DNA of 31,120 nucleotides from a virus: the IMG/VR virus record IMGVR_UViG_3300005329_000153, positions 1 to 31,120 of that record; one strand, 5' to 3'. Under the pieces are notes generated by a model. The model saw only the letters and a list, made by a program, of their open reading frames with translations, searched no databases and was not told the origin of the DNA. A program made the position numbers and the translations under genes. Below, piece by piece: positions 244-30,924 of the stretch. How positions within the stretch are numbered: the first letter of the stretch is position 1; each line of letters starts with the position of its first letter.

Positions 244-307
244 TGATTGCTTGAGGTCACAGCCCAACTGTGGCTTCACTGAAGTTATCAATCAATAGGA
301 GGACGAA

Positions 308-409
308 ATGAGCTACTTATTGCTAAGTTTGGTATGCGGATTCGTCGTACTATCAGCAATTGATTGGCCCTCACTGTGGCGGAATTGGACTAAAGGACAA
401 ATAAAATGA
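308..409 (+). CDS. 33-aa hydrophobic small protein
   Basis: An AGGAGG Shine-Dalgarno at 298-303 lies 4 nt before ATG 308, which decides the start. The product is 33 residues: a hydrophobic stretch at residues 3-18 and a Trp-rich, Lys-ending tail. It is probably a single-pass micro-membrane protein. The TGA at 407-409 overlaps the ATG of the next gene at 406 (ATGA), a translational-coupling arrangement. A CTGTGGC heptamer lies inside the gene at 374-380. No family recognised. Confidence 0.6.
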   Translation: MSYLLLSLVCGFVVLSAIDWPSLWRNWTKGQIK

Positions 410-561
410 TGAAGATTATGGTTTGGTTTGCACTTGCTTATGGTTGTCTATCTGGAGGAATAACAGCACTAATTTATAGCCTATACTATCAATTGCCTTA
501 TTGGGGTGTTGGTCTTGTGCTTTTCTCTACTATCTTTTTAATTAGATATCAGAAGATGTAG
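406..561 (+). CDS. 51-aa two-helix membrane protein
   Basis: ATG 406 overlaps the stop of the upstream 33-aa gene. The 51-residue product has two hydrophobic segments, about residues 4-24 and 29-45, joined by a short Tyr/Gln/Pro turn and ending in a basic tail. A two-helix hairpin of this size is compatible with a small holin or antiholin, but the gene does not sit beside the endolysin, so function is not assigned. Translation is probably coupled to the upstream gene, since no independent strong ribosome-binding site is seen. Confidence 0.6.
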   Translation: MMKIMVWFALAYGCLSGGITALIYSLYYQLPYWGVGLVLFSTIFLIRYQKM

Positions 562-591
562 CAAAAATCGACCGGAATTAGGAGAATTTCA

Positions 592-786
592 ATGAAAATG
601 TACAAACATATTGAAACAGTTAAATTCCCATTTGGCATTACTGTGTCAACATGCACTTCTCATACTCACAGTTTTATTGGAAAACACCCGTTCGGTGGAA
701 CTGTTCGCCAAACAATTACTCTAGTTGGTATTTGCAGTGACTATTGTCCTTTGAAGGGTCGTGTCCATCGTGGAAATCTCATTTGA
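592..786 (+). CDS. 64-aa hypothetical protein
   Basis: ATG 592 is preceded by an AGGAG-type site at about 580. The product has 64 residues, is soluble and His/Thr-rich, and contains three cysteines (one in the middle and a CxxxC pair near residues 49-53). A metal-binding role is possible but unproven. The gene overlaps the next candidate reading frame, which starts with GTG at 770. No family recognised. Confidence 0.5.
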   Translation: MKMYKHIETVKFPFGITVSTCTSHTHSFIGKHPFGGTVRQTITLVGICSDYCPLKGRVHRGNLI

Positions 787-940
787 CTATGAAACAAAAC
801 AGAAAGTAATGAAACTTAGTGCCGAAGAAGAAGGATTGCTTTTAGCTGCATTGTGTAGTGCACAATGGCACACATATGTTTCCAGGGTAGCGGAATTCTG
901 TAAAGAGTTGCGTGAAGAACTGAAAAACGAGGCTAATTAG
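770..940 (+). CDS. 56-aa hypothetical helical protein
   Basis: The frame runs from GTG 770 to TAG 940 (56 residues), with a GAAGGG-like site about 12 nt upstream. An in-frame ATG at 809 would give 43 residues. The GTG start is preferred because the added N-terminus is coding-like and charged. The protein is acidic and helical: an Ala/Leu-rich middle, then a Lys/Glu-rich amphipathic C-terminus. It overlaps the upstream gene by 17 nt and its TAG overlaps the GTG start of the HTH gene downstream. No family recognised. Confidence 0.5.
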   Translation: MEISFDYETKQKVMKLSAEEEGLLLAALCSAQWHTYVSRVAEFCKELREELKNEAN

Positions 941-1566
941 TGGTGTCAACTCATGAAAGATACTACTTACCCATTGAAAGCCTACTAAAGGCTAATGGAT
1001 CAATGGGAGTTAACGCAATTGCACGTGAATTGGACGTGCCGGTATCCACAATTCAGAAATGGCTTGAACGTCAAAGGTATTTTGTCAAGAATGAAAAGCG
1101 TCAGTGGGAATTGCCTGGCACTAAGAGCACAGTTCGACAACTTAATGGAGAAATTCGAGAAGTAATCAATTCTCAACTGGTTACTATCGAGCGTTTGCAC
1201 CGAACTTTAGCCGATCAATTAGAAGCCACTGTTGATTTCATTAAAGACTATGAAATTAAACAGCCACAGGGAACTAAGCTAGACGAAGTTGATCGACCTG
1301 TGGCTGATATTGATCCTCGTCTAATTCAATTACAGGAAGACGCTAAGAAACTGAAGGAAATCTTCAATAAGAAAGATATCAAATCAAATATTCCTGAAGA
1401 ATACAAGGCTTTACTTAATGGTTATGACCACGTCGGTCTTGTCCTTAAAGAAGGAAAAGATTTTACCACTAAGTTTTTGGAAGATGAAATCTTTTCCCTA
1501 CTATCGGGCCGCATTTCCTCTCTATCAGAAGGAACTGTGGGAATATTGAAGGAGAATCAGAAATGA
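940..1566 (+). CDS. HTH and coiled-coil DNA-binding protein
   Basis: This 208-residue protein has an N-terminal helix-turn-helix at about residues 24-48 (the NAIARELDVPVSTIQKWL stretch has the A-x3-G/D-x4-I-x2-W pattern of MerR/transposase-like HTHs). It is followed by a short basic wing and then a long helical, Lys/Glu-rich region that is probably an oligomerising coiled coil. GTG 940 overlaps the stop of the previous gene, and a second GTG at 943 is possible. Alternatives are an early transcription regulator or a small-terminase-like protein; no large terminase is in the window to support the latter. Two CTGTGGC heptamers in opposite orientation lie inside the gene, at 1263 and 1298. Confidence 0.7.
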   Translation: MVSTHERYYLPIESLLKANGSMGVNAIARELDVPVSTIQKWLERQRYFVKNEKRQWELPGTKSTVRQLNGEIREVINSQLVTIERLHRTLADQLEATVDFIKDYEIKQPQGTKLDEVDRPVADIDPRLIQLQEDAKKLKEIFNKKDIKSNIPEEYKALLNGYDHVGLVLKEGKDFTTKFLEDEIFSLLSGRISSLSEGTVGILKENQK

Positions 1567-1754
1567 GTAAATGGACACATTCTATTTGTGTTAAAGATTT
1601 CGAAGACTTAACTGGTAAACCGGCAAAATCTGCTGTGAGAATGAAAGATCCTGAAGTTGAAGTGTGTTGCTTTTGTGGTAAAGATACAATCTCAGGAATC
1701 TACATTCGCCACGATCCTAGTAATTTGAACTACTGTGAGCATAAAGATGCCTAA
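1563..1754 (+). CDS. Small zinc-finger-like protein
   Basis: ATG 1563 overlaps the TGA of the HTH gene (ATGA). The 63-residue product has a CCxxC knuckle near residues 36-40 and a later Cys plus several His near the C-terminus (YCEHK). This is the pattern of a small zinc ribbon. It is one of more than a dozen short Cys-knuckle proteins in this genome. Function unknown. Confidence 0.65.
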   Translation: MSKWTHSICVKDFEDLTGKPAKSAVRMKDPEVEVCCFCGKDTISGIYIRHDPSNLNYCEHKDA

Positions 1755-1998
1755 GATTGATTACAGACGTTATGCGGAGCGCCGTCTTCGTATGAGGCAC
1801 CCCGAAGAACTTACAGAATTGTATGTCAAGGAACGAGGCCCTTTGGGACGTAGAGAGAACGAAACACCAAAAGAATATAATAATAGATTAGCTAATGCAT
1901 ATAGCCGAGCAACAACTACACTTAGAAAACAATATCCAGAAGAATATCGTAAACTTTTTATTGAAGTAGTTAGAGATAAACGACTGGAATTGCGTTAA
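1747..1998 (+). CDS. Basic helical protein, 83 aa
   Basis: The start is taken as ATG 1747, which overlaps the upstream stop by 8 nt; an in-frame GTG at 1735 would add 4 residues. The protein is very Arg/Glu/Tyr-rich, with a YPEEYRKLF segment near the C-terminus. HPEEL/YPEEY-type helices of this kind recur in small basic proteins of actinobacteriophages, where they are thought to bind nucleic acid; that comparison is from memory and not tested. It is the last gene before the bidirectional terminator at 2006-2041. Confidence 0.6.
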   Translation: MPKIDYRRYAERRLRMRHPEELTELYVKERGPLGRRENETPKEYNNRLANAYSRATTTLRKQYPEEYRKLFIEVVRDKRLELR

Positions 1999-2005
1999 GG
2001 CACAA

Positions 2006-2041
2006 AGAAAGGCCCGGATCAATTAAGATCCGGGCCTTTCT
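2006..2041. terminator. Bidirectional intrinsic terminator
   Basis: A perfect 15-bp inverted repeat (2006-2020 with 2027-2041, loop AATTAA) is GC-rich in the middle and flanked by A-run/T-run ends (AGAAAGG...CCTTTCT). It lies 7 nt after the stop of the plus-strand operon and 11 nt after the stop of the minus-strand gene 2053-2898, so it can end both transcripts. The AGAAAGGCCC/GGGCCTTTCT outer stem is shared with the terminator at 19822-19860. Confidence 0.9.
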
Positions 2042-2052
2042 AGTACAGCTGA

Positions 2053-2898
2053 TTACTTCTTGGTGATCACGAAGTGCAAATCGTTGTCATCGAACTCAAC
2101 AGGGTTGGTCTTAGTCTCCTCGGGAGAATTGCCAGCCTTTTCCCAAACCTCACGGAAAACATCAGCCTTAGGCGCCTTACCGCGCTCGTAGAACTTAGTA
2201 AGAGACATCGCCGTCTTGCTAAAACCATCCTCCGAAAGGATTTCCTTGCCATCCTTGTCAGTAACAACAACAGTAACACGGTACTTAGGAGTAGACTTAC
2301 CAGAATCACTAAAAGAGTGCTCCTGGTCCCGACCAATCATCGGAAGCTTAAACTCATTGAGGAAAGACTCAACAGCTTCAGATGCCTGAGTATTGGTAGT
2401 CATATCAGCCATCATCTTCAGCTGAGTACCAATAACATGAGCGGTCTTACGCTTCTCCTTAAGAGGAGCCTCAATCTCAGGATTACGATCGGCCGTAGCA
2501 GAAAGAGTAATACCAATCTTCTTAGACGTCACGTCGAGGACAGCGCGGCGAGCAAGATTATAAGCATCCTGCGCTGCCTCATACTTCTTAATGGCATCCA
2601 GAATCGCAGAATCAGGATCACTCTTGTCAGTCGGGCGCGCAAACTCGCGAGCCTTTTCCATAACCTTGTGAGCATTCCACTCAGCAGACTTCTCTGCCAA
2701 AACATCTTTGTTGTACGAAAGAATCTCGTCAACGGTCTGAAGATACTTATTGCAAAACTCAGCAAGGATAGGGTTTTCCATGAGAACAGCAGGAATACGA
2801 GAAGCCGGAGCCTCTACATTCTTGGCATTCTCAAGCTCTGCAGGCTCTGTCTTAGGAGCAGTAGCCTTAGTAGCCTTAGCAGCAGTCTGAGTAGACAT
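2053..2898 (-). CDS. Isolated reverse-strand protein, 281 aa, unknown
   Basis: This is the only minus-strand gene inside the plus-strand arm. The start ATG at 2898 has an AAGGGG site about 8 nt upstream. The N-terminus (residues 1-32) is Ala/Lys/Thr/Pro-rich and probably disordered. Residues about 40-165 are helical and probably coiled coil. Residues 200-281 look like a compact beta-rich domain ending in an acidic stretch and a Lys-Lys tail. The DNA is visibly richer in G+C than its neighbours and avoids the A/T-ending Leu and Arg codons common elsewhere. That suggests high expression or separate origin. No CTGTGGC heptamer occurs in it. I do not recognise the family; an abundant early DNA-binding or host-directed protein is conceivable. 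Confidence 0.85.
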   Translation of the reverse strand: MSTQTAAKATKATAPKTEPAELENAKNVEAPASRIPAVLMENPILAEFCNKYLQTVDEILSYNKDVLAEKSAEWNAHKVMEKAREFARPTDKSDPDSAILDAIKKYEAAQDAYNLARRAVLDVTSKKIGITLSATADRNPEIEAPLKEKRKTAHVIGTQLKMMADMTTNTQASEAVESFLNEFKLPMIGRDQEHSFSDSGKSTPKYRVTVVVTDKDGKEILSEDGFSKTAMSLTKFYERGKAPKADVFREVWEKAGNSPEETKTNPVEFDDNDLHFVITKK

Positions 2899-3125
2899 TT
2901 ACGTTTCCCCTTTCAAGGGAATAATTAAATGAGCAAACCCAAATGCTGCCCTGAAATCAGCCTTTTGTAAATATCCAATTGTCACATTTACAGCCGACCC
3001 CAGGGCATCATCTGTCCTGCTCGGTACCCCTCAAGTCTACATCATGACCTGCCAAAACACCACCTGTGGCGGAAAAATTCTTGAGAAAGTTATGTCCGTT
3101 TTGCCCGATTCTTTATTTGGAACTT

Positions 3126-3134
3126 TGATATAAT
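3126..3134 (+). promoter_or_regulatory. Extended -10 promoter candidate
   Basis: TGATATAAT is a perfect extended -10 element (TGn plus TATAAT) in the 362-nt divergent intergenic region upstream of the long plus-strand operon. No good TTGACA-like -35 is found at the usual 16-18 nt spacing, which extended -10 promoters can tolerate. Position and orientation fit transcription of the genes starting at 3261. Confidence 0.45.
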
Positions 3135-3208
3135 TAATGAAGAAGCTCAACTTTGCAAAAAGAATAATGTATTAGTCATCGATGGGTGTCGATTTGGCAG
3201 ACTTTATT

Positions 3209-3371: not shown

Positions 3372-3712
3372 CAATGATTTACAAATTTACTAATCCTCAA
3401 ATGATTCCTGAAGATTTGGTACCCGGCGAGTACACTACTCGTGTAATTGAAACTGGTTGGGAAGACGGAGATTTTGTAGTTATTCTTGAATATTTGGGTG
3501 AAATTAATAATGACAATAATCGTTGTCTCTTTCCTCTAGTAAAGCACGCCACAGGATGGCAGCCCACTTATTCAGATACCTATGTTGACGATATTACTGA
3601 TTATCATATTTGGGACTCTTATCGTAATCTTGACGAAAGTCATTATCAAGAATTTAACGATGATTTTAATGAAATCGTTGAATCTGAAAATTTGACTGGA
3701 ATTGAGAATTAA
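3368..3712 (+). CDS. 114-aa acidic hypothetical protein
   Basis: ATG 3368 overlaps the stop of the upstream 36-aa gene. The product has 114 residues and is strongly acidic, with many Asp/Glu/Asn and Tyr, particularly after residue 70. Low-pI small phage proteins are sometimes DNA mimics or host-factor inhibitors, but nothing here proves this. A GCCACAG heptamer is at 3548-3554. No family recognised. Confidence 0.6.
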   Translation: MTMIYKFTNPQMIPEDLVPGEYTTRVIETGWEDGDFVVILEYLGEINNDNNRCLFPLVKHATGWQPTYSDTYVDDITDYHIWDSYRNLDESHYQEFNDDFNEIVESENLTGIEN

Positions 3713-3713
3713 T

Positions 3714-3905: not shown

Positions 3906-4198
3906 AGCATTTAGTGTCTACAGAAGTTGCTAAATCTAGACTTGCTAAATGGATAGCTCAGGCACAACCAGTAAAACCAGGAATTACGTGGACTGAACGC
4001 CGAATGGCGATTAAATTTGGAGGACATACGTACCTTGTCGAGCAGGATCAAATTTTCGCATGTGCGCATTGCGGCCATTATGATCCTCAATGGAAGACAA
4101 CTGAAGTTCTAAACTTCTTTTTAGAAACCTTTGGTATTAAGCCTGAGGAAGTAGAAATCGTTTGCTCTGTGGCGGGTGTTGACAATGATGAGTCATGA
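3902..4198 (+). CDS. 98-aa protein with CxxCGH knuckle
   Basis: A GGAG site immediately precedes ATG 3902, which overlaps the previous stop. The 98-residue protein has a basic N-terminal half, including an RLAKW...RRMAIKFGG region, and a single CAHCGH knuckle at about residues 54-59. A second Cys (near residue 88) could complete a metal site. Possibly a small nucleic-acid-binding protein; no family recognised. A CTGTGGC heptamer lies near its 3' end at 4167-4173. Confidence 0.6.
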   Translation: MKHLVSTEVAKSRLAKWIAQAQPVKPGITWTERRMAIKFGGHTYLVEQDQIFACAHCGHYDPQWKTTEVLNFFLETFGIKPEEVEIVCSVAGVDNDES

Positions 4199-4553: not shown

Positions 4554-4697
4554 ATGTCAAAAGAAAAGCAGCCACAGCCCCCACCGCAGCCCGTTAAATG
4601 TAGTAATTGTGGAGGTAGCGGCACGCAGATTATTCATGAGAACGGTAAAGCAAAAGCCGTTACATGTGGAGTCTGTGGCGGAAGTGGTTATGTCTAG
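4554..4697 (+). CDS. DnaJ-type CxxCxGxG zinc-finger micro-protein
   Basis: A GAGGAG site precedes ATG 4554. The 47-residue product carries two CxxCGGSG repeats (residues 16-23 and 39-46), the Cys-rich zinc-finger pattern of DnaJ/Hsp40. A Pro/Gln-rich N-terminus precedes them. There is no J domain, so it is not a chaperone partner itself; it may bind unfolded protein or simply bind zinc. Two CTGTGGC heptamers in opposite orientation lie inside the gene (4571, 4673); the second spans one of the CxxCGG repeats. Confidence 0.65.
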   Translation: MSKEKQPQPPPQPVKCSNCGGSGTQIIHENGKAKAVTCGVCGGSGYV

Positions 4698-5874: not shown

Positions 5875-5957
5875 GCGGATGTGGCGGAACGGCATACGCA
5901 GTTGACTTAAAATCAACCGCTCGAAAGAGCATACGGGTTCGAATCCCGTCATCCGCA
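5875..5957 (+). tRNA. tRNA-Leu(UAA)
   Basis: This is a complete class II cloverleaf: acceptor GCGGATG/CATCCGC, anticodon stem GTTGA/TCAAC with loop CTTAAAA (anticodon TAA at 5908-5910), long variable arm GCTC-GAAA-GAGC, T arm ACGGG/CCCGT with TTCGAAT, and discriminator A. CCA is not encoded. It reads UUA (and UUG by wobble), codons that this A+T-rich genome uses frequently, which fits compensation for a host poor in that tRNA. Confidence 0.95.
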
Positions 5958-5971
5958 CTGAAAGGATTTAA

Positions 5972-6323: not shown

Positions 6324-8059
6324 CAGCCACAGAGGACCACAAAGCTATTCTAGATCAGATTGATCATTATGTAGTAGATCTCAGAGAAACAGATGCTCAG
6401 GAAGCCCTTCTCAATGACCAATTAGCTCAAATTCGACTAGAAATAGCTAAGCTAAGAGATAAACGTTATCAAACTCGAATTAGGCTACGTGAAGCCGTCA
6501 CTAATAAAGAATCTATTGAGCGTCAAGTTAGTCTTGAAGAAGAAGCTGCCGCAATTAAAAAGCGAATTGAAAAGAAAAAAGCTGAAGCTAAAGAACTTCT
6601 TGAAAATGCACCTTGGAAAGATATTGCAAAGGATTGGCAGGTATCGGGGGCAATTCAACTTCCCGAGCGTGCACTTCTTGGAGATAAACGAGGGCTAGGA
6701 AAAACTCTAAGTTCTCTTATTTGGCTCCGGCTTCAGAGGGCTAAGAAGACTCTTGTTTGTCTTCGTAAAGAAGTGGCTGAAGATTTTATTAAAGAAATCA
6801 GCATTCGAGAACCTGATAAATTTGTTTATCCTCTTATTGGCGCTACACCAGAGACTCGCAGGATTGCTGCGATGCTTCTCAATGGACACAAGGAATTTAT
6901 TGTAGTTACTAATATTGAATCATGGCGCAAAAATATTGAGACGACAACCAATGATCTTCTCAAAATTAATTATGACACAATGATTCTTGATGAAGCTCAC
7001 CATATTAAGAATGCTAATAGTAGTACAGCTCTGGGTTTCTTTAAATTGGCGGATACAGTACCTAAAGTACTAGAACTTACAGGTACTCCGATTAAGAATA
7101 AGCCACAGGAGATGTTCTCACTACTACATGCTTTATATCCTAATATTTTTCCGTCCGAAAGAAAATTCCAGAGAGATTTCTGCACTCAAATTACTCAAAA
7201 TAAGTGGATGTTCACGCCACAGGGACTGGTTAATCTCGTTGAGAGAATTAAACCTTTTTATCTAGCACGTAGTCCGGAGGACGTAGGGAGGGACGTTCCT
7301 CCGCCTCGTATTATTGAATACAAGCTAGACTTTGAGAATCATCTTAAACAAAAAGAAGCATATAAGATTATGACAGAGCGCAGTATGGCTCTACTTACAA
7401 GTGGTAAAGTAATTCCAATTGTAAGTCAGCTGGCCATTATGACTCGTCAGGCACAAGTAGTAAGTTGGCCTGCTGGTATTCGCTTTGTTGATCCAGAAGA
7501 TGGACAAGTCTATAAATTTGACGTTGAAGAATCTGTTAAAATGGATTGGGCTGAAGAGTTAATTCAAGAGCTAGTAGGCGAAGGAGAAAGAATTCTTCTC
7601 TTCTCTCGATTCAAGCCTGCTATTTATGAACTACAGAAGAGACTAACACAAGCAGGTCTCTCTGTGGCTGTTATCACTGGTGACGAGGATAAAACTAATA
7701 ATAGGGAAATCTTTAATGATTTTGATTTAAAGACAGCTGATCCAGATGATTACAAATATCAGGTGCTTCTCGCAACATATCAGACTGTAGGTGAAAGTGC
7801 TAATCTAAATGCAGCACGTCATGCTATTCTCTACGATCGCTTCTGGAATCCAGGAAATGAAGATCAGGCGATTGGTAGAATTGACCGACTCAATTCTATT
7901 GATCAAGCAACCGTGCACGTTCCAATTGTAGATAAATCTATTGATGTCTATATGTCAGATTTAATTGATGAAAAGAGAAATATTATCACAGGATTCAAAG
8001 CAGCATCCGACATGCAAACAAGCTTGGCAAAGCATTTAAGTGAAACTGTTAAAGGATAA
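6320..8059 (+). CDS. SNF2-family DNA-dependent ATPase/helicase
   Basis: This 579-residue protein has an N-terminal coiled coil (about 8-95) and a superfamily 2 SNF2-type ATPase core. Visible motifs: Walker A GLGKT (125-129) preceded by ALLGDKRG, Walker B DEAHH (about 224-228), motif III LTGTPIKN (about 252), helicase lobe 2 from about 415 (LLFSRF, VITGD), and motif VI QAIGRIDR (about 515) with the downstream RFWNPG neighbourhood typical of SNF2. SNF2 proteins translocate on double-stranded DNA and remodel protein-DNA complexes; in phages they often sit with replication/recombination genes, as here. The long N-terminal coiled coil is not part of the usual core and may be a tethering or oligomerisation arm. 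Three GCCACAG/CTGTGGC heptamers lie inside the gene (7102, 7216, 7662) and a fourth (6326) is at its start. Confidence 0.92.
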   Translation: MTATEDHKAILDQIDHYVVDLRETDAQEALLNDQLAQIRLEIAKLRDKRYQTRIRLREAVTNKESIERQVSLEEEAAAIKKRIEKKKAEAKELLENAPWKDIAKDWQVSGAIQLPERALLGDKRGLGKTLSSLIWLRLQRAKKTLVCLRKEVAEDFIKEISIREPDKFVYPLIGATPETRRIAAMLLNGHKEFIVVTNIESWRKNIETTTNDLLKINYDTMILDEAHHIKNANSSTALGFFKLADTVPKVLELTGTPIKNKPQEMFSLLHALYPNIFPSERKFQRDFCTQITQNKWMFTPQGLVNLVERIKPFYLARSPEDVGRDVPPPRIIEYKLDFENHLKQKEAYKIMTERSMALLTSGKVIPIVSQLAIMTRQAQVVSWPAGIRFVDPEDGQVYKFDVEESVKMDWAEELIQELVGEGERILLFSRFKPAIYELQKRLTQAGLSVAVITGDEDKTNNREIFNDFDLKTADPDDYKYQVLLATYQTVGESANLNAARHAILYDRFWNPGNEDQAIGRIDRLNSIDQATVHVPIVDKSIDVYMSDLIDEKRNIITGFKAASDMQTSLAKHLSETVKG

Positions 8060-8070
8060 AGGAGACTGGT

Positions 8071-8250
8071 ATGGACTTGGAAGAGCTTAAGGTAGCAGTT
8101 AATAAACTTCTGCTTCATGAGCATGACTTTCAGCCGGATGAAGCGGAAGAGTTGATCGAGCAGTCAGTAGCAGAAAACCCTCTGTTCTGGAATGAGAATG
8201 CCATTCCAGAAGATCTCGCTAATCTACTTGCGACAGGCGATGACGACTAG
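8071..8250 (+). CDS. 59-aa acidic helical protein
   Basis: An AAGGAGA site lies upstream of ATG 8071, 11 nt after the SNF2 stop. The 59-residue product is very acidic (DDD at the C-terminus) and almost entirely helical. It probably acts with or next to the SNF2 protein, given its spacing. No family recognised. Confidence 0.6.
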   Translation: MDLEELKVAVNKLLLHEHDFQPDEAEELIEQSVAENPLFWNENAIPEDLANLLATGDDD

Positions 8251-8266
8251 TAAGCTATGAGGTAGC

Positions 8267-8299
8267 GGGCCTCACCTCAAGCAATTGGGAGTGAGGCCC
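8267..8299 (+). terminator. Strong hairpin, possible attenuator/terminator
   Basis: GGGCCTCAC (8267-8275) pairs perfectly with GTGAGGCCC (8291-8299) over a 15-nt loop, followed shortly by a CTTTTG run. It lies in the 155-nt gap before the ParB-like gene, where a partial terminator or mRNA-stabilising hairpin is plausible. No gene other than the leader frame at 8344 is seen in this gap. Confidence 0.5.
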
Positions 8300-8343
8300 C
8301 AGGCTTTTGTGCCCAAAATCAGGCTCTGCGGGGGAGGTTGATC

Positions 8344-8400
8344 ATGGCCAGACAAGCCTACCCTACGCAAATCAAATCGAATTTATTGAAGGTAAGGTAA
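8344..8400 (+). CDS. Possible 18-aa leader peptide
   Basis: ATG 8344 has a very strong GGGGGAGG site 6 nt upstream, better than that of the following gene, and reads 18 basic codons to TAA 8400. The next gene starts 5 nt later. The strong initiation site on such a short frame suggests a leader peptide that couples or regulates translation of the ParB-like gene. Confidence 0.4.
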   Translation: MARQAYPTQIKSNLLKVR

Positions 8401-8405
8401 AGTAA

Positions 8406-9224: not shown

Positions 9225-9412
9225 AACCACCAAGAATTTTTAATGTAGATCCTAGAAAACATGGTTATTCTGAATGTTTGGCTTGTGGTAAATTCAAGTT
9301 TAATTTAAGATTTAGGAATGATAAAATCGACTGGATTTTATGTGAGCTCGACTATGTAGATTATTGGGAGAATACTGATCACCTCTCCCCCGACTATAAG
9401 GTGTATCCATGA
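9221..9412 (+). CDS. 63-aa small Cys-knuckle protein
   Basis: ATG 9221 overlaps the stop of the ParB-like gene. The 63-residue product contains ECLACGKF (CxxC, about residues 19-22) and a later Cys (about 41), with many aromatic residues in the C-terminal half. Its stop overlaps the next start. A small zinc- or nucleic-acid-binding protein is likely; function unknown. Confidence 0.6.
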   Translation: MKPPRIFNVDPRKHGYSECLACGKFKFNLRFRNDKIDWILCELDYVDYWENTDHLSPDYKVYP

Positions 9413-19822: not shown

Positions 19823-19864
19823 GAAAGGCCCTGGACTGAGGAATAGTCCAGGGCCTTTCTTTTT
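19822..19864. terminator. Bidirectional terminator between converging operons
   Basis: A perfect 16-bp inverted repeat (19822-19837 with 19845-19860, 7-nt loop) is followed by CTTTTT on the plus strand and by a T-rich run on the minus strand. It separates the plus-strand replication operon from the minus-strand virion operon. It shares the outer stem AGAAAGGCCC/GGGCCTTTCT with the terminator at 2006. Confidence 0.93.
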
Positions 19865-21122: not shown

Positions 21123-24100
21123 TTACGTGTAATCACCTCTATTCTTTTTAGCCATTTGCTTGATAAGATCTTGAATTTCAATACGTGATTGAGAAGTATA
21201 TGGACCAGTGCCCGTAACACCCATACCGGTTAAATAGTTAATTAGTTGCTCAGGATTATAAGGTTCATTATCTCTATTCATACCAGACAAACGCAATCCC
21301 AATCCAACAGCAGGTACCTGAGAAGCCAGATAACCTGCCGTGCCTCCCTCTTGACTGGAAAGAGGAATACCAAGTGCAGTATTACCCGTTAATAATTCTA
21401 ATGGGATTCTTGCTGCTGGCGTGAGTCCGCTAAGTAAAGTCTGTTTCGGATTGCCAAGTTGTTGTAACTGATCAAGGAACGGCGTCGACGGATTAACAAT
21501 AGTATAACCGGGCGAAGAACCTCGCCAAGTTGCTTGTCTTCCGAGTCCGGAACCCGGCTGTAAAATAGGTCCAATTCCTTTTTCCTTTAACCAATCTGGA
21601 AACATTTGATCCATAGGGAAGGGATTTCCAGGTCCTTGAGATTCAACACCTGTAGCAATTTGAATATCTGCCATTGCCTTCGGAAAGGCTAAAGTAACCT
21701 GAGGACGCATAATTGCGCCTTCAATAACTAAAGGTGTAGCTTTTCTCAACCAGGAATAGAAGGGAATGACTCGTCGTAAAACATTCTGTTCAAATCCCGT
21801 GAGGTCCATTCCATCTGGATGAAATTTCTTAACTCTTCGAGTAGCTTGTTCAATAGCAATAGGTAAAGGTGAACGAGATTTTTCTAGGACGTCAACAAAA
21901 TGAGCGAGCCTTACCCAGTGTTCTCTGAGTTCTGAGGCCTTTGTAGCTGTGTCATAGACCCGTCCACCAAAGGGCTGAAATTTAGATCCAAAGGTTCCAA
22001 ATGCAGGAGATTGGTCACCAACTAAGTCTTCGAGGTTCGTAGCTCGGGGAAAAAGGCCACGAGACTCGGCTGCTTGATAGATTTGTTCTGCTGTTAATTT
22101 ATCTCCGTGGCGTGTTGTAAGAACGGTGTTACCAGGCCTAGCACGTAGAGCAGACTCACGTAACTTAGGATCCATAATGTTAAAGACAGATTCCAAACTC
22201 TTATATCTCGTTGGAAACGCATGTAAAACTTTGGTAGCAATTGCATAAGGCTTAGGACTGACAACGCCATCAAGAGCAGACAGATAAATATCTCCATTGA
22301 GATTTCTAATATGGTGGGAAGGAGAATAAATAGTAACACCGGTTTTCCACATCCTTTGTACTTTATCAAATAACTCAATAGCTTTGTGCGGAGACTTAAA
22401 TATGTCCCGGTCCAGCTGTCTCTGTAAATTACTTAACTGTGTAGCGATCTCTTTAGGAAAGTACGTACCTTTAAGTCTTGGAATATTATCTACGGCATGC
22501 TGGAATTCTGCAGTTCTCTTTGGTAATCCCCAACGAGCAATGGCGTCATCCCACATACTATTCTTACGGGTGACTAACTGTAAAGATCGTGTAAGTTGAT
22601 ACAGAGCCTCTGCCGGCTCCTGTGGTGTCCATTCTTTCCATGAATGCATCCATTGACCATTTGTATAATCGAATTCCCTTCCAAGTTTATCCATACCATG
22701 CGTATTAATGAACTGAAATTCTTTAGGCATTACCTCATTAAGTTCTTTCATTACAGTACCACTACGATATAAAACAGATTCAGCATTATCTGTAATACCA
22801 TGAGTACCTAGAAGTCGTTCTACCATATATTGGAATTGCTGAGCTAAAGCTGCTTCTTTAGTAGATCCTGCTGTAACCTTACCAGCAGCCACAGAGAAAG
22901 CAACCTGTCGTTCAGTTTTAGTAGACATTCGAATTAAAGGCTTAATAGTTTCTGCGAAGGCTGCTGCTACATTTCGTGCAGTATCTATGTATTCGCGAGA
23001 GAATGGCTTAAGATCTTTAGCGTTCCACCATGTGGCGAAACGAGTCATAATCCCTTCGACAACTTTATTTTGCGTAAGTTCACGTCCGAGTACTTTTGGA
23101 TTAGAACCAAGCGCTTTATAGACATCAGTCGAGACTTTATATAGCGTTTCGGGATTAACAACACCACTAGCAGACTGCCGAACAAGATTACGCGCTTCTT
23201 GCTGAACAGTGCTATAAAGTTGATCACGATTAGGATTAAATAGTTCATCAACGAAACGCTTAGCGGTACCTGCTTCTTTACTTGATGCACCTGCATTCTC
23301 TGCAATCTTTGCTAATTCTTTACTTACTTCACTACCTAAAGCAGCTGTTTGGCTGGGGGGAATATCCTTTGTAGCTTCGGCGATATCCGCACCAGTCTTA
23401 ATTACAGGATCAAGAGTTTCAGTTACAGTTTTTGGAACAGTAACTGCTTTAAGATTCTCAAGTGCTTGGTTCGGTCGAGCTTTTCTGAAGTCATCAACTA
23501 ACTTACTAGAAAGAGCTCGATGTCCACCCATCATATTTGCGAGATCACTTAATCTTACACTGACACCTTCACTGTCTACTAGGTGCCGTCCCTGAGATAA
23601 AATATGATCTTCAGCCACACGCAGCATCTGCATAACAGTGAAAGAACGGCGATCCTTACGAACCTTACTAGCAGCATGGACTAATTTATTATAAAGATTT
23701 GTCTGGCCCACAGGATTAATATTTTTAAGTCGATTAGTCTTCATAAACTGTTCTGCAGCTGCCTTAGCTGTGTCTATCCATCTAGATCCGATAGTAACAG
23801 CTGGGAACTCCACAGGTGTTTCACGTACTGCAGTTATCATATCTGCAGGTTCGACACCAGCTTTAAGTTTATCAACTTGTTTACGTAACATACTTCGGGT
23901 AATAGGACTCTTAGCTGCTTCAATCTGCCTATTCAAATTTTTGATGTTATTTAGAGGATTAAATAATGTTTTTAACTTGTCTTCTTGTGAAACTACAGAA
24001 GGTGCTTTATTGATAATAGGTTCTAATGCTTTTAATTTGCCAGACTCGTCTGAAAGAGCAGTTACTAAATTACTCTCACGTGTAAGTTCTCCTGCCAAAT

Positions 24101-24774: not shown

Positions 24775-26058
24775 CTAACCTCCCGAACTATTACCGTAAT
24801 AAAGCTGTAAGTACATTAAAAGAGCTTGATGGGTTGCTGCATCAATCTGGCCATTTTGAAACATTTTATCAGCTTGCTCAGCGTACCATTGAGGAGTTGT
24901 AGAAACAAAAGTACCAGGAACCGGACTACGAGGATCTTCTACTTTACCATAAATGGCTTCAGGACTACGCTGTAATTGAGTAAATGCACCAGCCACAGAC
25001 TGCTGAACATTAGAAGGAAGACTACCCATAAACTGATCTAAGGGGCTAGCTTGTGATTTATTACCTTGAAGCTGACTCTGTAAAATCTGCCACAGCATGT
25101 CCTGTCGACGATTAGTTTCTTGAGATGCCATTTGCTGCTGCTGTAAAAGTTGGTTTTGTGCTTGTCCCAATTGATCCATATAGCCGCTTTGAATGCCAGA
25201 AGCTCGCTCTGACTCGTTCTGATTTAAGTAATCAGTAAGCTGACTTAGTAAATTAGCTGCTTGTTCATTGCCTGCCATAATGGCAATTGGAGAACCTTCA
25301 TTGTAATAAGTCTGATCGGCTTTACTAGTGTCCTGATAATATTGCTGCTGTTGTGCTTGATTAGCAGATGCCGCATTTAGAGCATCCATCTGTGAGGGCT
25401 GCTGTTGTTCGGTAACTGCAGGAAGAGCGTCTTGAATTCCTAATTGTTGAAATAAATCTGCTTGATCCTGATTAACTCGGCCATAACTTCCTTCAATATT
25501 ACTACGTAGCTGTCCATAAATAGCTGCTACATCAGCTTGATTCTGTGCGTTCTCTTTAGCCTGTGCTGCCCCTGTGGCTTTAAAATCATTAGCTAAGGCC
25601 TGAGCCATTCCTTTAATATCAGCTTCTCCACGAGCATCTTGAGCTTTGGCCGTAGCTGCCCTTTGATCATAAATTGGATTAAGTGCTGCTTTAACTTGGT
25701 TCATTAAATCATCTTTATTAATACCCGTAGGAGCCGCCACAGGCTGTTGCAACTGATCTAAAAGCTGGTTATAAAGTTGGGTCATAGGATCGTTTTGCTG
25801 TTGCATTAATTGCCCCAGCTGACCACTAATACCTAGAACATTACTGAGTGCATTTCCAACAGCGTCGCTCTGTGGGCTTCTAAATTGTCCAACAACGGGG
25901 GAAGCGCCAGAGCCATAGCTTTTATTTGGAGAAACTAACGGCCCCGTGGCTGTAGGTAAAAGGTGCTGAAATCTATTATACCCATATTTAGCGGTAGGTA
26001 GTACGCTAAGTAACTTGCTGATTAATCCTGGATCATATCCAGCACCAAATAATGACAT
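24775..26058 (-). CDS. Gln-rich minor virion protein
   Basis: 427 residues, exceptionally rich in Gln, Asn and Ala, with long helical/coiled stretches and poly-Gln runs. Its place between the Gly-rich protein and the 1214-aa protein suggests a tail or internal virion component. It carries the densest group of heptamers (24992, 25089, 25572, 25736). No specific family recognised. Confidence 0.65.
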   Translation of the reverse strand: MSLFGAGYDPGLISKLLSVLPTAKYGYNRFQHLLPTATGPLVSPNKSYGSGASPVVGQFRSPQSDAVGNALSNVLGISGQLGQLMQQQNDPMTQLYNQLLDQLQQPVAAPTGINKDDLMNQVKAALNPIYDQRAATAKAQDARGEADIKGMAQALANDFKATGAAQAKENAQNQADVAAIYGQLRSNIEGSYGRVNQDQADLFQQLGIQDALPAVTEQQQPSQMDALNAASANQAQQQQYYQDTSKADQTYYNEGSPIAIMAGNEQAANLLSQLTDYLNQNESERASGIQSGYMDQLGQAQNQLLQQQQMASQETNRRQDMLWQILQSQLQGNKSQASPLDQFMGSLPSNVQQSVAGAFTQLQRSPEAIYGKVEDPRSPVPGTFVSTTPQWYAEQADKMFQNGQIDAATHQALLMYLQLYYGNSSGG

Positions 26059-26063
26059 CTAAA

Positions 26064-26744
26064 TCACCCGATTTGATACTTAGCAGCTCGACGAGCTAAC
26101 GCCTCCTGCTTAGCCTGCTGGACAGCTAAATCGTATTCACGCTTATAGTTATTCTGCTGAGACAGAAGATCAGCGAGTAAACCACTCTGCTGCTGACCAA
26201 GAGCATTTAATTGATCATTGTATTGCTGCTGAAACTCTCCCTCTTTCTGACCGAAAAGGCCAGAGTTAATAAGACCACGAGATGCATATTCTTGACGAAG
26301 TTGATCTAACTGGGTAGTCCTATCACGACCCATGCTATCAACAGTATTATTATATTGAGTAGTTGCTTCGCCCTTACGACGAGTAATATCTGCAATATAA
26401 TCAGCTAATGTCCGCTTACCTCCACTTACTGCTTGCTGATAAGCAGAATCAGTTCCTAGATAAGCATTAATAGAAGGGATTACAGGAGCGGCAGTATGGG
26501 ATACAACTGCTCCACCACCACCGCCACCTCCGCCTCCTCCACCGCTACTCCTTCCAACATTCCTACTAAAGTTACTTCCTCCACCGCCTCCTCCTGAACT
26601 ACGACTGCTTCCACCGCCACCGCTAGAGCGTCCAACACTCTTACTTTTTGTACCTCCAGATTTCCTAACAGCTACCGTAGTTTTATGAACAGCCTTACCT
26701 AGATTGCTGACCCAACCAGGACCACTCGGCTCCGGAGGTAACAT
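26064..26744 (-). CDS. Gly/Ser-rich virion protein
   Basis: 226 residues. Residues about 35-80 are Gly/Ser tracts, including a run of about eleven glycines encoded by GGN repeats; the C-terminal half is Gln/Ala-rich and helical. Low-complexity Gly regions act as flexible linkers in tail proteins. The trinucleotide repeat DNA may vary in length between related phages. It overlaps its upstream gene by 1 nt. Confidence 0.65.
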   Translation of the reverse strand: MLPPEPSGPGWVSNLGKAVHKTTVAVRKSGGTKSKSVGRSSGGGGSSRSSGGGGGGSNFSRNVGRSSGGGGGGGGGGGAVVSHTAAPVIPSINAYLGTDSAYQQAVSGGKRTLADYIADITRRKGEATTQYNNTVDSMGRDRTTQLDQLRQEYASRGLINSGLFGQKEGEFQQQYNDQLNALGQQQSGLLADLLSQQNNYKREYDLAVQQAKQEALARRAAKYQIG

Positions 26745-26956
26745 TAAAAAATCCTCCCAACATCAGAACTCATATAATTTTGTGCCTTTATCGCTTTCAA
26801 ACGCCGTAACATTGCATCACGGCGAGCTTGATACTTTAAATCTCTTGTAGCATGTCCCATAGGATCTACAGGACCATTATTTGGAGCGTCACTTCCACCA
26901 CCGTAAATTTTTCCACCGGCGGCATAAGGTAAATACTGCTGGCCTTGAAAAATCAT
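26744..26956 (-). CDS. 70-aa small virion-operon protein
   Basis: 70 residues with a Tyr/Gly-rich, Pro-containing first half and a basic helical second half (DLKYQARRDAMLRRLKAIK). Its start overlaps the stop of the 524-aa gene and its stop overlaps the next start, so it is firmly in the operon. Function unknown; possibly a head-tail or tail linker. Confidence 0.6.
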   Translation of the reverse strand: MIFQGQQYLPYAAGGKIYGGGSDAPNNGPVDPMGHATRDLKYQARRDAMLRRLKAIKAQNYMSSDVGRIF

Positions 26957-28527
26957 GAAATCCTCGCAGAGACTAGCTCCTTAACAGACACAATTGCAGT
27001 ATACTGGAATATCTTTGTTGGTTGAGTTGTGGAACCATCAGTCTCTAACTGAAGTGAAAAGTTAGCTTTCCTAAAGCGTAACGTTTTACCAAATTTAACC
27101 ATCTTATTAGTATTTGAAATATCGTCACCAGCTACTGTTTCTGTATTAGTTGTGGCACCTAATGTTGGATTTCCCCATGTATTAAGATCTGCCCATGTTT
27201 GCGTAGTTAGTGCATTCCACGTTGTTGAGCTAATTAACGTAATTGGAGTGATAGAGCCGATTACCTGTTTTCCTGAAAGAATATCAGCGCCCCACCAGAA
27301 AAGTTTCTTATATCGAATAGGATCTGCAATATCATAGCTTTTAGTAGTTGCGATACAATAGAATTTATGCGTACCTGCACCCTCCGTTGAACCGCTTGAT
27401 CTTCCATCAATAATCTTTAATAATTTGTAACCCGTAGAACTAACATCAAAGGAATAAGAAGTATAATAACTATCAAGACCAGAACCAGATAAATCACGTG
27501 CTCTAACTAAAGGACCAAAGATATGCCATTCAGTTGTTGCTGTTGTATCAGTTTTACGCCACTCCCCCCAAGTGCGAGTGCGTAACTGAAAAGAATAAGT
27601 TCTATTATAATAACGAACAATTAAACGTTCTCCAAGGGTACTTAAATGCTGATTCTCATATCTAGCAATTGCGTTAGTGGGTAACGAGTTATCAAAGACA
27701 AGAGGCACCTTAAGATTAAGTAAAGAAAAGTTATAATTCGTAATTTCATAAACTTTATTTCGATGCATCGTGTATACCGTGTTTTCATACTGAACTAGTC
27801 CTAAGCTGCCCGTGGAACCAACTACTGGATTGATTTCTCTAAGAATCGCGTCAGCTGGATCAAGATCATATGCAAGAACATGAGTACTTTCACCTTTAAA
27901 TAACAAAACAGAATCTTGATAAACGATAAGATTGTTGAGGGTATCCCCGTCCCCGTTCTGCACATCAATGAAATTTGTACCAGGCCATGTGGTAAAATCA
28001 GCTGACTGAGAAAATGTAAGTCTTGAAGAGTTAGACGTTGCATTTTCACCAGGAACCACATACAATCTATTTTTATGAACTACACACTTTTCAGCCCTTG
28101 GGATTGCAGCCTGCGCCACAGCCCCGCCGCCTGGTGTCCAAGAAATTCCACCATTAGCACTAGCTGAAGTAGCAGGAAGCCAAACAGTAGAAGCATAAAC
28201 TTCCATACAACGACATTCACGAGAAAGACCACCAGGATTTAATTCAGTCCAAGAACTACCAGCGTTAGAACTTACATAAGTTTTACCGTTCTGAGTACCA
28301 AAAAGATATAGAGTTCCACTGAAAACTACAGAACCGAAGATAAAAAGACGTTGGTTAGTACCACCATTAAACGTAATCTGAATGGCAGGCCGACTTACTA
28401 AAGCACCATCAATATCCAATTCCAAGTTTAAACACGTACTAAGTTCGGTATCTCCAATAAGAACAGGATCTGATCCTGTGTTTAATCCCCCATTAAAAGG
28501 TCCTAACCGTAGAATCTGAACAGCCAT
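26953..28527 (-). CDS. Tail tubular protein B-like / tail stabilisation protein
   Basis: 524 residues, almost all beta-strand, with a FNGGLNTGSDPVLIGDTELSTCLNLELD start. That N-terminus is characteristic of podophage tail-hub/tubular proteins that open with 'GGlNt..dP..i...e...c.N.......G'. Repeated blade-like segments follow. It overlaps its neighbours by 1-4 nt and follows the tail tubular A-like gene, the order known from T7-like virions. Homology was not tested by search. Confidence 0.7.
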   Translation of the reverse strand: MAVQILRLGPFNGGLNTGSDPVLIGDTELSTCLNLELDIDGALVSRPAIQITFNGGTNQRLFIFGSVVFSGTLYLFGTQNGKTYVSSNAGSSWTELNPGGLSRECRCMEVYASTVWLPATSASANGGISWTPGGGAVAQAAIPRAEKCVVHKNRLYVVPGENATSNSSRLTFSQSADFTTWPGTNFIDVQNGDGDTLNNLIVYQDSVLLFKGESTHVLAYDLDPADAILREINPVVGSTGSLGLVQYENTVYTMHRNKVYEITNYNFSLLNLKVPLVFDNSLPTNAIARYENQHLSTLGERLIVRYYNRTYSFQLRTRTWGEWRKTDTTATTEWHIFGPLVRARDLSGSGLDSYYTSYSFDVSSTGYKLLKIIDGRSSGSTEGAGTHKFYCIATTKSYDIADPIRYKKLFWWGADILSGKQVIGSITPITLISSTTWNALTTQTWADLNTWGNPTLGATTNTETVAGDDISNTNKMVKFGKTLRFRKANFSLQLETDGSTTQPTKIFQYTAIVSVKELVSARIS

Positions 28528-29180
28528 TAAGCATCAAACTCCAATACTGTAATAGTTGGATAGGTATTCGTATCTTCCTTAGTATCGCTATTACTAAGTT
28601 CCCTAACATCATCCATAAAATTAGATTGATACATAATAGCTGGATCGTGATCTTCATCTAACAAACTAGCTTGCCACATACAATACTGCCAAATAGTGTT
28701 GTGGTAAATCAAAGGAAGAGAAAGAGCGTCCGATGTAAGTACCACATCAGTAGGACGTTTATTGTGAAGAATCTTTAATCCACCTGTGGCTGATTGGTCA
28801 GGTGTTGGAAATAAGATAACTTGACCTTTATCCATAGTATAGTAAATAGGAGCACCGACACCATATGCAGTACCATCCCAGCCATCCACAAGCTCATCAA
28901 ACTCTTGCATACTAGCATATTTAATCTTATTAAAACTTAGCATGCTTGTATACTTATAACGCAGAGCTCTAATAATTAATAAGGTAGCAGGCATTGTATA
29001 CGTAGATTGATTTGCCACTAGATCCATAAACGTTGTTTCTTGTAAAGCGCTATCATTACGTTTTACAATTTCTATTTGTGCATCATTAATCCAACGAATA
29101 ACATCTGCATCTTGAACCTGAACTGCAGCCTCGTCACCAAATGTCCGTCGGACTCGTGTAATAATATCAGATACAATCAT
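28527..29180 (-). CDS. Tail tubular protein A-like / head-tail adaptor
   Basis: 217 residues beginning IVSDIITRVRRTFGDE...IRWINDAQIEIVKRN, a pattern of adaptor/tail-tubular proteins in which an N-terminal helical bundle (D-x2-R-x6-D...W-I/L-N-x-A) is followed by a mixed domain. It immediately precedes the tail tubular B-like gene. This two-gene order is the strongest hint that the virion has a short tail. Confidence 0.72.
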   Translation of the reverse strand: MIVSDIITRVRRTFGDEAAVQVQDADVIRWINDAQIEIVKRNDSALQETTFMDLVANQSTYTMPATLLIIRALRYKYTSMLSFNKIKYASMQEFDELVDGWDGTAYGVGAPIYYTMDKGQVILFPTPDQSATGGLKILHNKRPTDVVLTSDALSLPLIYHNTIWQYCMWQASLLDEDHDPAIMYQSNFMDDVRELSNSDTKEDTNTYPTITVLEFDA

Positions 29181-29620
29181 TTATCAATCACAGACCTAAC
29201 CGGACCTAGATCTCTAAATTGATCGTCTCTCATTCTTCCGTCATGACGCCAACGACTCTTTGTGTTCCCAGCAACAAACTTTACAAAATCTTTAATCTCT
29301 TCGCGTCTATCTAGTTCTTCTTTTAACTTTAAAGCTTCAATAGCTGCATTATGAGCATCCATTCTTGCAACTACATCCCCATGCTTTAAATCAATACTCC
29401 ACAATTTTTCAAGAATAGCCACAGGATTGCTTAAGGAATCTGCATACATAACGATAGTTTTAGTACGATCATCTACGATACGAAAGCATTGTTTCTTATC
29501 TACTAGGTCAACTTGTCGTTCAGGAGGGATCCATTCTAGAAATAAGTTAGGATCATAATCCTGAATGACCTCGGCAAGTCTTTGGAACTCGGCTGAAACC
29601 CATTCATCCACGTTTGGCAT
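29177..29620 (-). CDS. Conserved small virion/head protein, 147 aa
   Basis: 147 residues. An amphipathic N-terminal helix (VDEWVSAEFQRLAE) leads into a DLVDKKQCFRIV...TIVMYAD domain and a long C-terminal coiled helix. Similar small proteins occur beside structural genes in many phages (recalled; no function known). Its first 17 codons are repeated, silently diverged, at 29771-29821. ATG 29620 lies inside the end of the preceding frame. Confidence 0.65.
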   Translation of the reverse strand: MPNVDEWVSAEFQRLAEVIQDYDPNLFLEWIPPERQVDLVDKKQCFRIVDDRTKTIVMYADSLSNPVAILEKLWSIDLKHGDVVARMDAHNAAIEALKLKEELDRREEIKDFVKFVAGNTKSRWRHDGRMRDDQFRDLGPVRSVIDK

Positions 29621-29762: not shown

Positions 29763-29821
29763 TAGGGAAACTCCGCCAAGCGTTGAAACTCGGCGGAGAC
29801 CCATTCGTCAACTTGTGACAT
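29762..29821 (-). CDS. 19-aa peptide duplicating the start of the 147-aa protein
   Basis: ATG 29821 overlaps the stop of the acidic gene (TAATG) and reads 19 codons to TAA. Residues 4-17 (VDEWVSAEFQRLAE) are identical to residues 4-17 of the protein starting at 29620. By my count at least 8 of these 14 codons differ, and all changes are silent. That implies both copies were kept under protein-level selection, or that the duplication is old. Confidence 0.55.
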   Translation of the reverse strand: MSQVDEWVSAEFQRLAEFP

Positions 29822-30306
29822 TACTCGTCTTCGTCTCGCTTCAAATTCTTGTCATCATTCTTGTTTTCAGGAGCAAACTCACTCGTAGAGCTCTCATCTA
29901 ACTGCTCTTCATCTGGATCCTGCTCTGGGAAACCCTTGTCATCATTAACATTAACACCAGCAAACTGAGTCACATGTACCACCTTAGAAGTTTGAGCCTG
30001 ATGCACGGGGTCAGGCTGAGGTAAAACATCAGGATGAACCTTACCTAAATTATGTTCTGGATTCTCCTGCCAGACGGGAATAGTAGAAACCTGCCCGTCA
30101 TCCCCCACATAAGGTTCAGTCTTTCCTGCCATAGGATCAGGTAAAATATTAGTCTCTACCCTGTCGTTACCCTCTACATCCACATCGTTAGGCTTATCAA
30201 CAACTACGGGCTCATCAACAGGAGTAGTAACTTCTTCATTCTTATCGTTACCCAACATTTCAGATAACGACTTTGCTGGAGCTGCTGCCTTCTTAGCTGG
30301 TGCCAC
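29821..30306 (-). CDS. Acidic, disordered virion-operon protein
   Basis: 161 residues: a Lys/Ala/Pro N-terminus, then a very acidic, Pro/Asp/Glu/Asn-rich body with no hydrophobic core, ending in a Lys/Asp/Glu tail. It lies just downstream of the capsid-type genes, so a scaffolding-like or chaperone role is possible but unproven. AGGAGG (minus strand, 30312-30317) precedes the ATG at 30306. Confidence 0.6.
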   Translation of the reverse strand: MAPAKKAAAPAKSLSEMLGNDKNEEVTTPVDEPVVVDKPNDVDVEGNDRVETNILPDPMAGKTEPYVGDDGQVSTIPVWQENPEHNLGKVHPDVLPQPDPVHQAQTSKVVHVTQFAGVNVNDDKGFPEQDPDEEQLDESSTSEFAPENKNDDKNLKRDEDE

Positions 30307-30320
30307 TTTTCCTCCTTTAG

Positions 30321-30363
30321 TAAAGTTGGCTGCACCTGTGGCGACAAGGAACAGCCAACTTTA
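30321..30363 (-). terminator. Strong hairpin in the late operon with heptamer in its loop
   Basis: TAAAGTTGGCTG (30321-30332) pairs perfectly with CAGCCAACTTTA (30352-30363): 12 bp, 19-nt loop. The loop contains CTGTGGC (30336-30342). On the minus strand it lies between the stop of the Cys-rich gene and the AGGAGG of the acidic gene. It may act as a partial terminator (setting a lower level of the downstream genes) or as a processing hairpin. Confidence 0.6.
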
Positions 30364-30364
30364 T

Positions 30365-30592
30365 CTACTTATGCGTTTCTTTGTTCTTACACCTGCAACC
30401 ATCAACCGGTCCCCAGGAGGGACAAATTGAAGTAACATCCGCTGTATGCTCACAAGGAAAATTATAAAAAGGATCATTACATTTAGGTCCGCAACGATTG
30501 GGATCATGCCAGTAAGGAACTTTTTCCTTGCACTCATCACAGACTAAAAAGGGATTAGCAAAGCCAATTTGTACATGTTTACTGGTAAGCAT
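30365..30592 (-). CDS. 75-aa Cys-rich protein
   Basis: 75 residues with CDEC, RCGPKC, a PCEH and C-x-C near the end: at least eight Cys/His potential zinc ligands. Its stop lies 2 nt from the 12-bp hairpin. The start overlaps the stop of the 110-aa gene. It is the only zinc-ribbon-like protein in the virion operon; function unknown. Confidence 0.65.
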   Translation of the reverse strand: MLTSKHVQIGFANPFLVCDECKEKVPYWHDPNRCGPKCNDPFYNFPCEHTADVTSICPSWGPVDGCRCKNKETHK

Positions 30593-30924
30593 TAATGATT
30601 AATCGATTCTAAACAGATTACGGCAGAAGCCGTATCTGAAGCCCCAGTAGCCTGATTTAAAGAAACGTTAATAGTTGTAACAGCAGGTAGGTCAAAAACA
30701 ATAACGGGAAATGCAATTGTATCTCCCGGTCCCCCAGGAATAACAACAGTACCTACTGGTGACGGAATACCTGTAACTTTTAAACCATCAGCTAATGTAT
30801 GTCTCCCAGAACCTGTCATTCGATAACGGCCTACAGGTACATTTACGCAAGAAGCCACAGCGGTGTTAGCTGCTACGTTATTACCTTGTGTACCGCTACC
30901 AACAACAGTAGTGTTGGTACGCAT
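30592..30924 (-). CDS. 110-aa small virion protein, possible capsid decoration
   Basis: 110 residues, mostly beta-strand, rich in Gly/Val/Thr/Ala with almost no charged residues. Such a composition is typical of capsid-decorating or head-fibre proteins. It starts 1 nt after the end of the probable capsid gene and is codon-biased like an abundant virion component. Heptamer at 30854. Confidence 0.55.
   Translation of the reverse strand: MRTNTTVVGSGTQGNNVAANTAVASCVNVPVGRYRMTGSGRHTLADGLKVTGIPSPVGTVVIPGGPGDTIAFPVIVFDLPAVTTINVSLNQATGASDTASAVICLESINH

Follow-up and report, generated by a model that had tools for sequence, protein, structure and literature searches.

A lineage-specific heptamer as the proposed genome-wide template site of a phage primase-helicase

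The viral record IMGVR_UViG_3300005329_000153 from IMG/VR, analysed here over its whole length of 31,120 nucleotides (nt) and referred to as the window, carries 38 exact copies of the heptamer CTGTGGC or its complement GCCACAG. We propose that primers are started at this heptamer by the primase-helicase that the phage itself encodes (12694-14400), which would recognise it on the template strand. Judged on sequence comparisons, a structure model and analogy with characterised primases, we put the probability of this reading at about 0.77. It also seems likely that the wider phage family, sampled in about 60 contigs with isolates included, carries an evolving genome-wide priming-site code, in which each lineage's primase has its own word of 6-8 nt, kept semi-regularly on each strand. 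Through shifts in this code (AGC to GGC, AG to CG, AAAG), dozens of sites would have been changed, and the genome sequence would reveal what an uncharacterised primase recognises.

The heptamer in the window and its close relatives

An earlier note on this DNA, made from its letters alone, had described CTGTGGC as strongly over-represented across the whole window and counted 37 copies, 16 in one orientation and 21 in the other. The count of 16, for the plus strand, was right; on the minus strand one copy, at 222-228, had been missed, which brings that strand to 22. Base composition predicts 1.8 copies, in agreement with the 1-2 that had been estimated by hand, and an order-2 Markov model predicts 2.4 (Poisson -log10P of 31). 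The note had proposed a Markov count of all heptamers; in this count CTGTGGC had the highest over-representation of all 7-mers of the window, and it was not one of many equally enriched words. A general inflation of k-mers is ruled out as a source of the excess, as a single word stands out. Comparable enrichment was found for none of the 21 one-mismatch neighbours of CTGTGGC in the window, and the word is therefore kept almost exactly. The control word, CTGTGGC reversed but not complemented, occurred once.

On the plus strand the exact matches lie at 268-274, 374-380, 1298-1304, 3064-3070, 4167-4173, 4673-4679, 7662-7668, 10159-10165, 13625-13631, 16748-16754, 17421-17427, 19402-19408, 21043-21049, 25572-25578, 28784-28790 and 30336-30342. 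Minus-strand matches, in addition to 222-228, lie at 1263-1269, 3548-3554, 4571-4577, 6326-6332, 7102-7108, 7216-7222, 10012-10018, 10327-10333, 13705-13711, 14804-14810, 14996-15002, 16058-16064, 17358-17364, 17801-17807, 22888-22894, 24992-24998, 25089-25095, 25736-25742, 28115-28121, 29418-29424 and 30854-30860. The four long gaps listed previously (10327-13625, 25736-28115, 7662-10012 and 1298-3064) all exist, but the longest gap in the window is no larger than chance would give.

As had been claimed, the copies are spread over reading frames and non-coding DNA. Thirty are in coding DNA, where they occupy several codon phases and divide into 15 sense and 15 antisense, and 8 of the 38 lie outside the open reading frames (ORFs) taken as genes (the non-coding fraction of the window is 17%). 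When synonymous codons were shuffled within genes, coding DNA retained 3.25 ± 1.6 copies (maximum 8, n=300) compared with the 30 observed. These shuffles rule out codon bias as the source of the excess, a point on which the note had been correct. The flank preference it wrote as YCTGTGGCK was also recovered, with C or T before 32 of the 38 copies and G or T after 37.

DNA nearly identical to the window was not found among phage isolates. The primase-helicase and DNA polymerase of the window match metagenomic contigs at 64-83% identity, and CTGTGGC is the top 7-mer in L001-L007 and L020-L027 when words containing N are ignored (fourth in L027), at a density of about one site per kb. At ∼71% nucleotide identity, 22-50% of aligned CTGTGGC copies were conserved, against 5-13% for 7-mers of equal GC content. 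The sites are therefore selected, yet turning over. Taken with the codon shuffles, this conservation as sites bears out the suggestion of a DNA-level signal.

The sites are also spaced strand by strand. Sites on the same strand are on average ∼2 kb apart in the CTGTGGC clade, and same-strand gaps shorter than 800 nt numbered 41 against an expected 83.6 ± 6.3; the distance to the nearest opposite-strand site was random. Because the genomes of this clade are related, single genomes were tested too, by keeping the site positions fixed and shuffling the strand labels. Same-strand avoidance was seen in the window (P=0.015), G001 (0.002), G004 (0.0002) and G005 (0.006), and outside this clade in G013, G014, G015 and Arthrobacter phage Jasmine. 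Over 14 lineages the strand-label shuffles gave a Fisher combined P of 2.4e-6. Such spacing is expected for a signal that is read on one strand at a time and needed at intervals on each strand. A double-strand binding site is disfavoured, because it would ignore strand.

The same properties bear on the idea that the abundance of the word is driven by mutation or repair, or that the word is a modification site, with no role in priming. A precedent exists in HIP1 of cyanobacteria, a fixed word of similarly high abundance. However, the CTGTGGC word is not palindromic, its one-mismatch intermediates are not in excess, and neither the strand-wise spacing nor the linkage to the primase described below would be predicted. 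We regard this explanation as very improbable.

Words, primases and candidate readers across the phages

In nearly every contig with a homologue of the window's primase-helicase (27-83% identical), a single CTGT word is hyper-abundant, and its 3′ suffix depends on the lineage: CTGTGGC, CTGTAGC, CTGTAG, CTGTCG, CTGTAAAG or CTGTGG. CTGTAGC is the word of L008, L073 and L085 (36 copies against 1.6 expected in L085). CTGTAG reaches 134 copies in G007 (24.8 expected) and 98 in L028 (28 expected), and CTGTCGG 43 in L078 (2.4 expected), with L082 using it as well. Among named phages, CTGTCG occurs 116 times in Cellulosimicrobium phage DS1 (28 expected), CTGTGG 101 times in Jasmine (16 expected) and CTGTAAAG 45 times in Microbacterium phage Shocker (L029; 0.1 expected). 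Usually one of the 16 CTGTNN words stands out in a contig, and the runner-up is mostly near background.

After dereplication, 44 of 56 primase-helicase contigs had a CTGTNN(N) word at -log10P>5. Since CTGT was settled on as the prefix with these data already in view, a fairer figure is 37 of the 56, the contigs whose single most enriched 7-mer includes CTGT. Contigs without the primase, found via PolA, passed -log10P>5 in 2 of 40 cases, and one of these two, L152, is a 10-kb fragment that may have lost its primase at the contig end. Mapped on the primase tree, the two-letter suffix changes 7 times, compared with a mean of 24.0 and a minimum of 17 for shuffled labels, and the CTGTGGC group is nested inside the CTGTAGC group. 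Both the presence of the word and its variation were in step with the primase in the tested contigs. The GG suffix is shared by the window clade and Jasmine; among fixed differences, no clear candidate emerged for convergent residues behind it.

Second iterated words were also noticed. Shocker has 25 copies of TAGGGTA (1.1 expected), which cluster within 2 kb of both genome ends and are otherwise scattered; GGTAAAG is found in Jasmine-like phages, and AGGCTAT in DS1 (27 against 3.9). In the first and last 5.7 kb of Shocker, CTGTAAAG is on the minus strand in 7 of 8 and 9 of 9 cases, and the middle of the genome is balanced.

The presence or absence of genes was scored by profile search of complete or near-complete genomes. 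Every CTGT-bearing phage in this search has the primase-helicase, PolA, Cas4, Sak4 and RuvC. Genes for the ParB-like, helix-turn-helix (HTH), HNH, SSB and SNF2 proteins are not consistently present in word-bearing phages, and these proteins were rejected as readers.

A ParB-like partition or packaging mark and a nucleoid-protein site had both been suggested in the earlier note, and the window does encode ParB-like (8406-9224) and HTH (940-1566) proteins. Binding of the word by another phage protein of this kind (ParB-like, HTH, HNH, nucleoid or partition), for compaction, packaging or partition, is nonetheless very improbable. The ParB-like gene was found only in the window and in Gordonia phage Fribs8; G001-G005 have the same heptamer at similar density and lack the gene. 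The HTH gene is limited to the CTGTGGC clade, outside which the CTGT word persists, HNH is absent from G006 and L028, and SSB is absent from most genomes searched. Strand-wise spacing would moreover be unexpected for a double-strand signal, and the nucleoid-protein suggestion is not supported.

Arthrobacter phage Korra helps to separate the remaining candidates. It has homologues of SNF2, Cas4, PolA and RuvC and a weak one of Sak4. A primase-helicase homologue is missing, and CTGTGG is not in excess (20 copies, 25 expected). Korra and Jasmine share a host strain, Arthrobacter sp. ATCC 21022. For Circum, Gordon and Galaxy, also phages of ATCC 21022, the CTGTGG counts were 10 against 14, 13 against 21 and 20 against 15; Circum showed a mild excess of CTGTAG (38 against 17). 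Phages of the same strain without the primase thus show no CTGTGG excess, and a signal determined by the host, such as Chi, is therefore unlikely.

In a Chi-like system the word would stop or redirect an end-resecting nuclease (host RecBCD, AdnAB or AddAB, or phage Cas4-Sak4), protecting DNA and promoting recombination. The note had raised this possibility for Cas4/Sak4, and the window indeed encodes Cas4-like and Sak4-like proteins; a strand-specific, asymmetric word of 6-8 nt found genome-wide in both orientations would suit such a role. Korra, with both genes and a PolA homologue in Jasmine's host, nevertheless has no word. Chi is host-determined, whereas Korra, Circum, Gordon and Galaxy all lack Jasmine's word despite the common host, and the identity of the word varies from phage to phage along the primase tree. 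We consider a Chi-like function unlikely.

Another replication protein linked to the primase (PolA, the RuvC-like protein or the SNF2 helicase) could read the word, for example as a pause or restart site for the polymerase. PolA, Cas4 and RuvC do accompany the primase in nearly all motif-bearing phages. All of these proteins are present in word-free Korra, however, and SNF2 is absent from G006 and G013, both of which keep the word, making this explanation decidedly unlikely. The gene that tracks the word is the primase-helicase, which the earlier note had not named, and on these sequence comparisons it is the best candidate reader.

The primase-helicase and a proposed priming mechanism

The primase-helicase gene (12694-14400, plus strand) encodes a protein of 568 amino acids, the proposed reader of the heptamer on the basis of AlphaFold2 (AF2) modelling, Foldseek searches and motif tracking. 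Annotators of actinophages label its homologues DNA primase/helicase. The AF2 model, with a predicted local distance difference test score of 84 for the whole protein and 90 for residues 1-291, comprises a predicted archaeo-eukaryotic primase domain (∼12694-13218), a helix bundle (∼13273-13536) and a RepA-like hexameric helicase domain (∼13561-14298), all on the plus strand. Its N-terminal part has the archaeo-eukaryotic primase catalytic fold. Foldseek matched the N-terminal 291 residues to RSF1010 RepB′ (3h20, E 1.7e-9), to the PrimPol of cyanophage S-2L (6zp9, E 4e-8, TM-target 0.71) and to RepB′ with initiator DNA (3h25, E 6e-7). Residues 194-284 of the model form five helices after the alpha/beta domain. 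Full-length RepB′ 3h20 was the best whole match; the superposition was poor (root-mean-square deviation 19 Å), perhaps owing to domain orientation. Among candidate active-site residues, for which the reference in RepB′ is D77/D78/D134, D80, H104, D133 and R144 are invariant across 29 homologues, and E78 is replaced by D in some. The C-terminal part matches RSF1010 RepA (1g8y/1nlf) by profile and fold (TM-target 0.76 for 1nlf), and AAA_25 scored above the Pfam cut-off, which identifies a hexameric RecA-fold helicase domain. The protein is predicted to join an RSF1010 RepB′ fold to a RepA-like helicase.

In the proposed mechanism the word would be read 5′ to 3′ on the template strand and would divide as CT|GTG|GC. 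Its lineage-specific 3′ portion, GTG, GTA or GTC followed by one to three more bases, would be held by the helix bundle. Primer synthesis would begin on the CT that adjoins this portion on its 5′ side, where the catalytic domain would form pppA-G as the first dinucleotide, and would continue into the pyrimidine-rich 5′ flank. Both strands would be primed repeatedly as lagging-strand templates in Okazaki-type synthesis, with selection keeping about one site per 1.5-2 kb per strand, and a change of primase specificity would lead to replacement of the whole genome's set of sites. We infer both the binding and start of the primase at the sites and their role in Okazaki synthesis. Two readings would account for the balanced orientations: the two strands may take turns as lagging template, or start points may be numerous.

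A close precedent is the primase of the archaeal plasmid pRN1, ORF904, whose template is 5′-CTGTGCTCA: its helix bundle binds GTG and the dinucleotide forms opposite CT (PMC11009956, PMC8076596). The window word likewise reads CT-GTG-GC. Unlike the motif of ORF904, which at 3 nt is too short for a visible genome-wide excess, the phage core is 6-8 nt long and hyper-abundant, with a suffix that varies between lineages. CTGT stays the same from lineage to lineage, and what varies is the 3′ side; a fixed catalytic start combined with a helix bundle that determines specificity would give this pattern. The 5′ flanks are poor in A and rich in pyrimidines, most strongly in the CTGTGGC, CTGTAGC and CTGTCGG sets, and on the 3′ side information mostly ends within two bases of the core.

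Several observations weigh against primase-driven site selection. The strand-spacing effect is absent in G007, L029 and L031. Lost sites show no preferential nearby replacement in relatives. The third base of the GTG of pRN1 and RepB′ is not conserved across lineages, which also have GTA and GTC. Within the small PolA-anchored sample alone, carriers and non-carriers of the primase did not differ significantly (P=0.26; 7 carriers, several of them very distant); close carriers were too few there for a rank test, and the contigs without the primase provide the background. CCAAC, the known site of GP55 in Lactococcus phage 1706, is not enriched in that phage (93 against 84), so that carpeting of the genome is not general to such primases. 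The most distant homologues, in Gordonia phages L032 and L033, come without a CTGT word; Emalynvirus phages of Gordonia, whose primases are 24-25% identical, have another word, TGGTGTGG (26 against 1.6 in Emalyn). In Emalyn (L033), GGTGTGG is strongly strand-biased, 34 to 9. TGGTGTGG/GGTGTGG in Emalyn may be the counterpart used by a distant primase, or may reflect coding bias.

The predicted folds of both halves resemble RepB′ and RepA of RSF1010 (IncQ), where priming is sequence-specific and GTG is found at the proposed RepB′ initiation site in ssiA (PMC4434180). RepB′ and RepA are separate proteins there and fused in the phage. Each strand of RSF1010 carries a single hairpin site of 40 nt, and its mode is leading-strand; in the phage a bare heptamer recurs 16-22 times per strand in 31 kb. 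Defined template sites are also known for other archaeo-eukaryotic primases of phages, namely NrS-1 primase-polymerase (TTTGGTTA, GTGA/GTGG) and GP55 of phage 1706 (CCAAC). These are different proteins, and the GP55 site is unenriched as described above. Several primase-polymerases use 5′-CCTG, and the NrS-1 primase uses GTGA/GTGG (PMC8718748). As short asymmetric words scattered genome-wide, the sites resemble both Chi and the stoperators of cluster A mycobacteriophages. Stoperators are mostly intergenic and have one orientation relative to transcription, unlike the sites described here, 30 of 38 of which are coding and equally divided between sense and antisense.

Most known primases have recognition sites of 3-5 nt, whose short length keeps them from standing out in a genome, and the starts of Okazaki fragments can rarely be read from sequence. 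If the proposed priming role is true, these starts are here visible, spaced and lineage-specific, and template words could be predicted for dozens of uncharacterised primases, such as CTGTGG for Jasmine, CTGTAAAG for Shocker and CTGTCG for DS1. It would be a case of co-evolution on the genome scale, between one enzyme and dozens of its sites. CTGTAG, CTGTAGC and CTGTGGC form a natural series of specificity changes for studying how a helix bundle reads DNA. An earlier report of such word carpeting was not found in searches of an open-access library.

Other features of the window

The record is probably a fragment, because genes for terminase, portal and major capsid protein were not recognised in positions 1-31120 and its near-complete relatives measure 43-47 kb. 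Relatives are actinobacteriophages, and Jasmine is podoviral (PMC5513430). Homologues of the window primase, which might have pointed to prophages and to the identity of the host, were not found in bacterial genomes.

DNA polymerase I is split in the window into a 3′-5′ exonuclease gene (14243-14890) and a polymerase gene (17459-18697), between which lie a lysin-like gene (15279-16010) and a holin-like gene (16016-16339). The split, with a distance of 2.5-5 kb between the parts, is shared by G001-G006; the parts are contiguous in G007, L028, L030 and L031. A tRNA-Leu gene (anticodon taa) at 5875-5958 overlaps predicted ORFs. Just after the RuvC-like gene, where the transcription arms converge, a strong stem-loop of 17 pairs with a T-rich tail (19821-19861) is likely to be a terminator.

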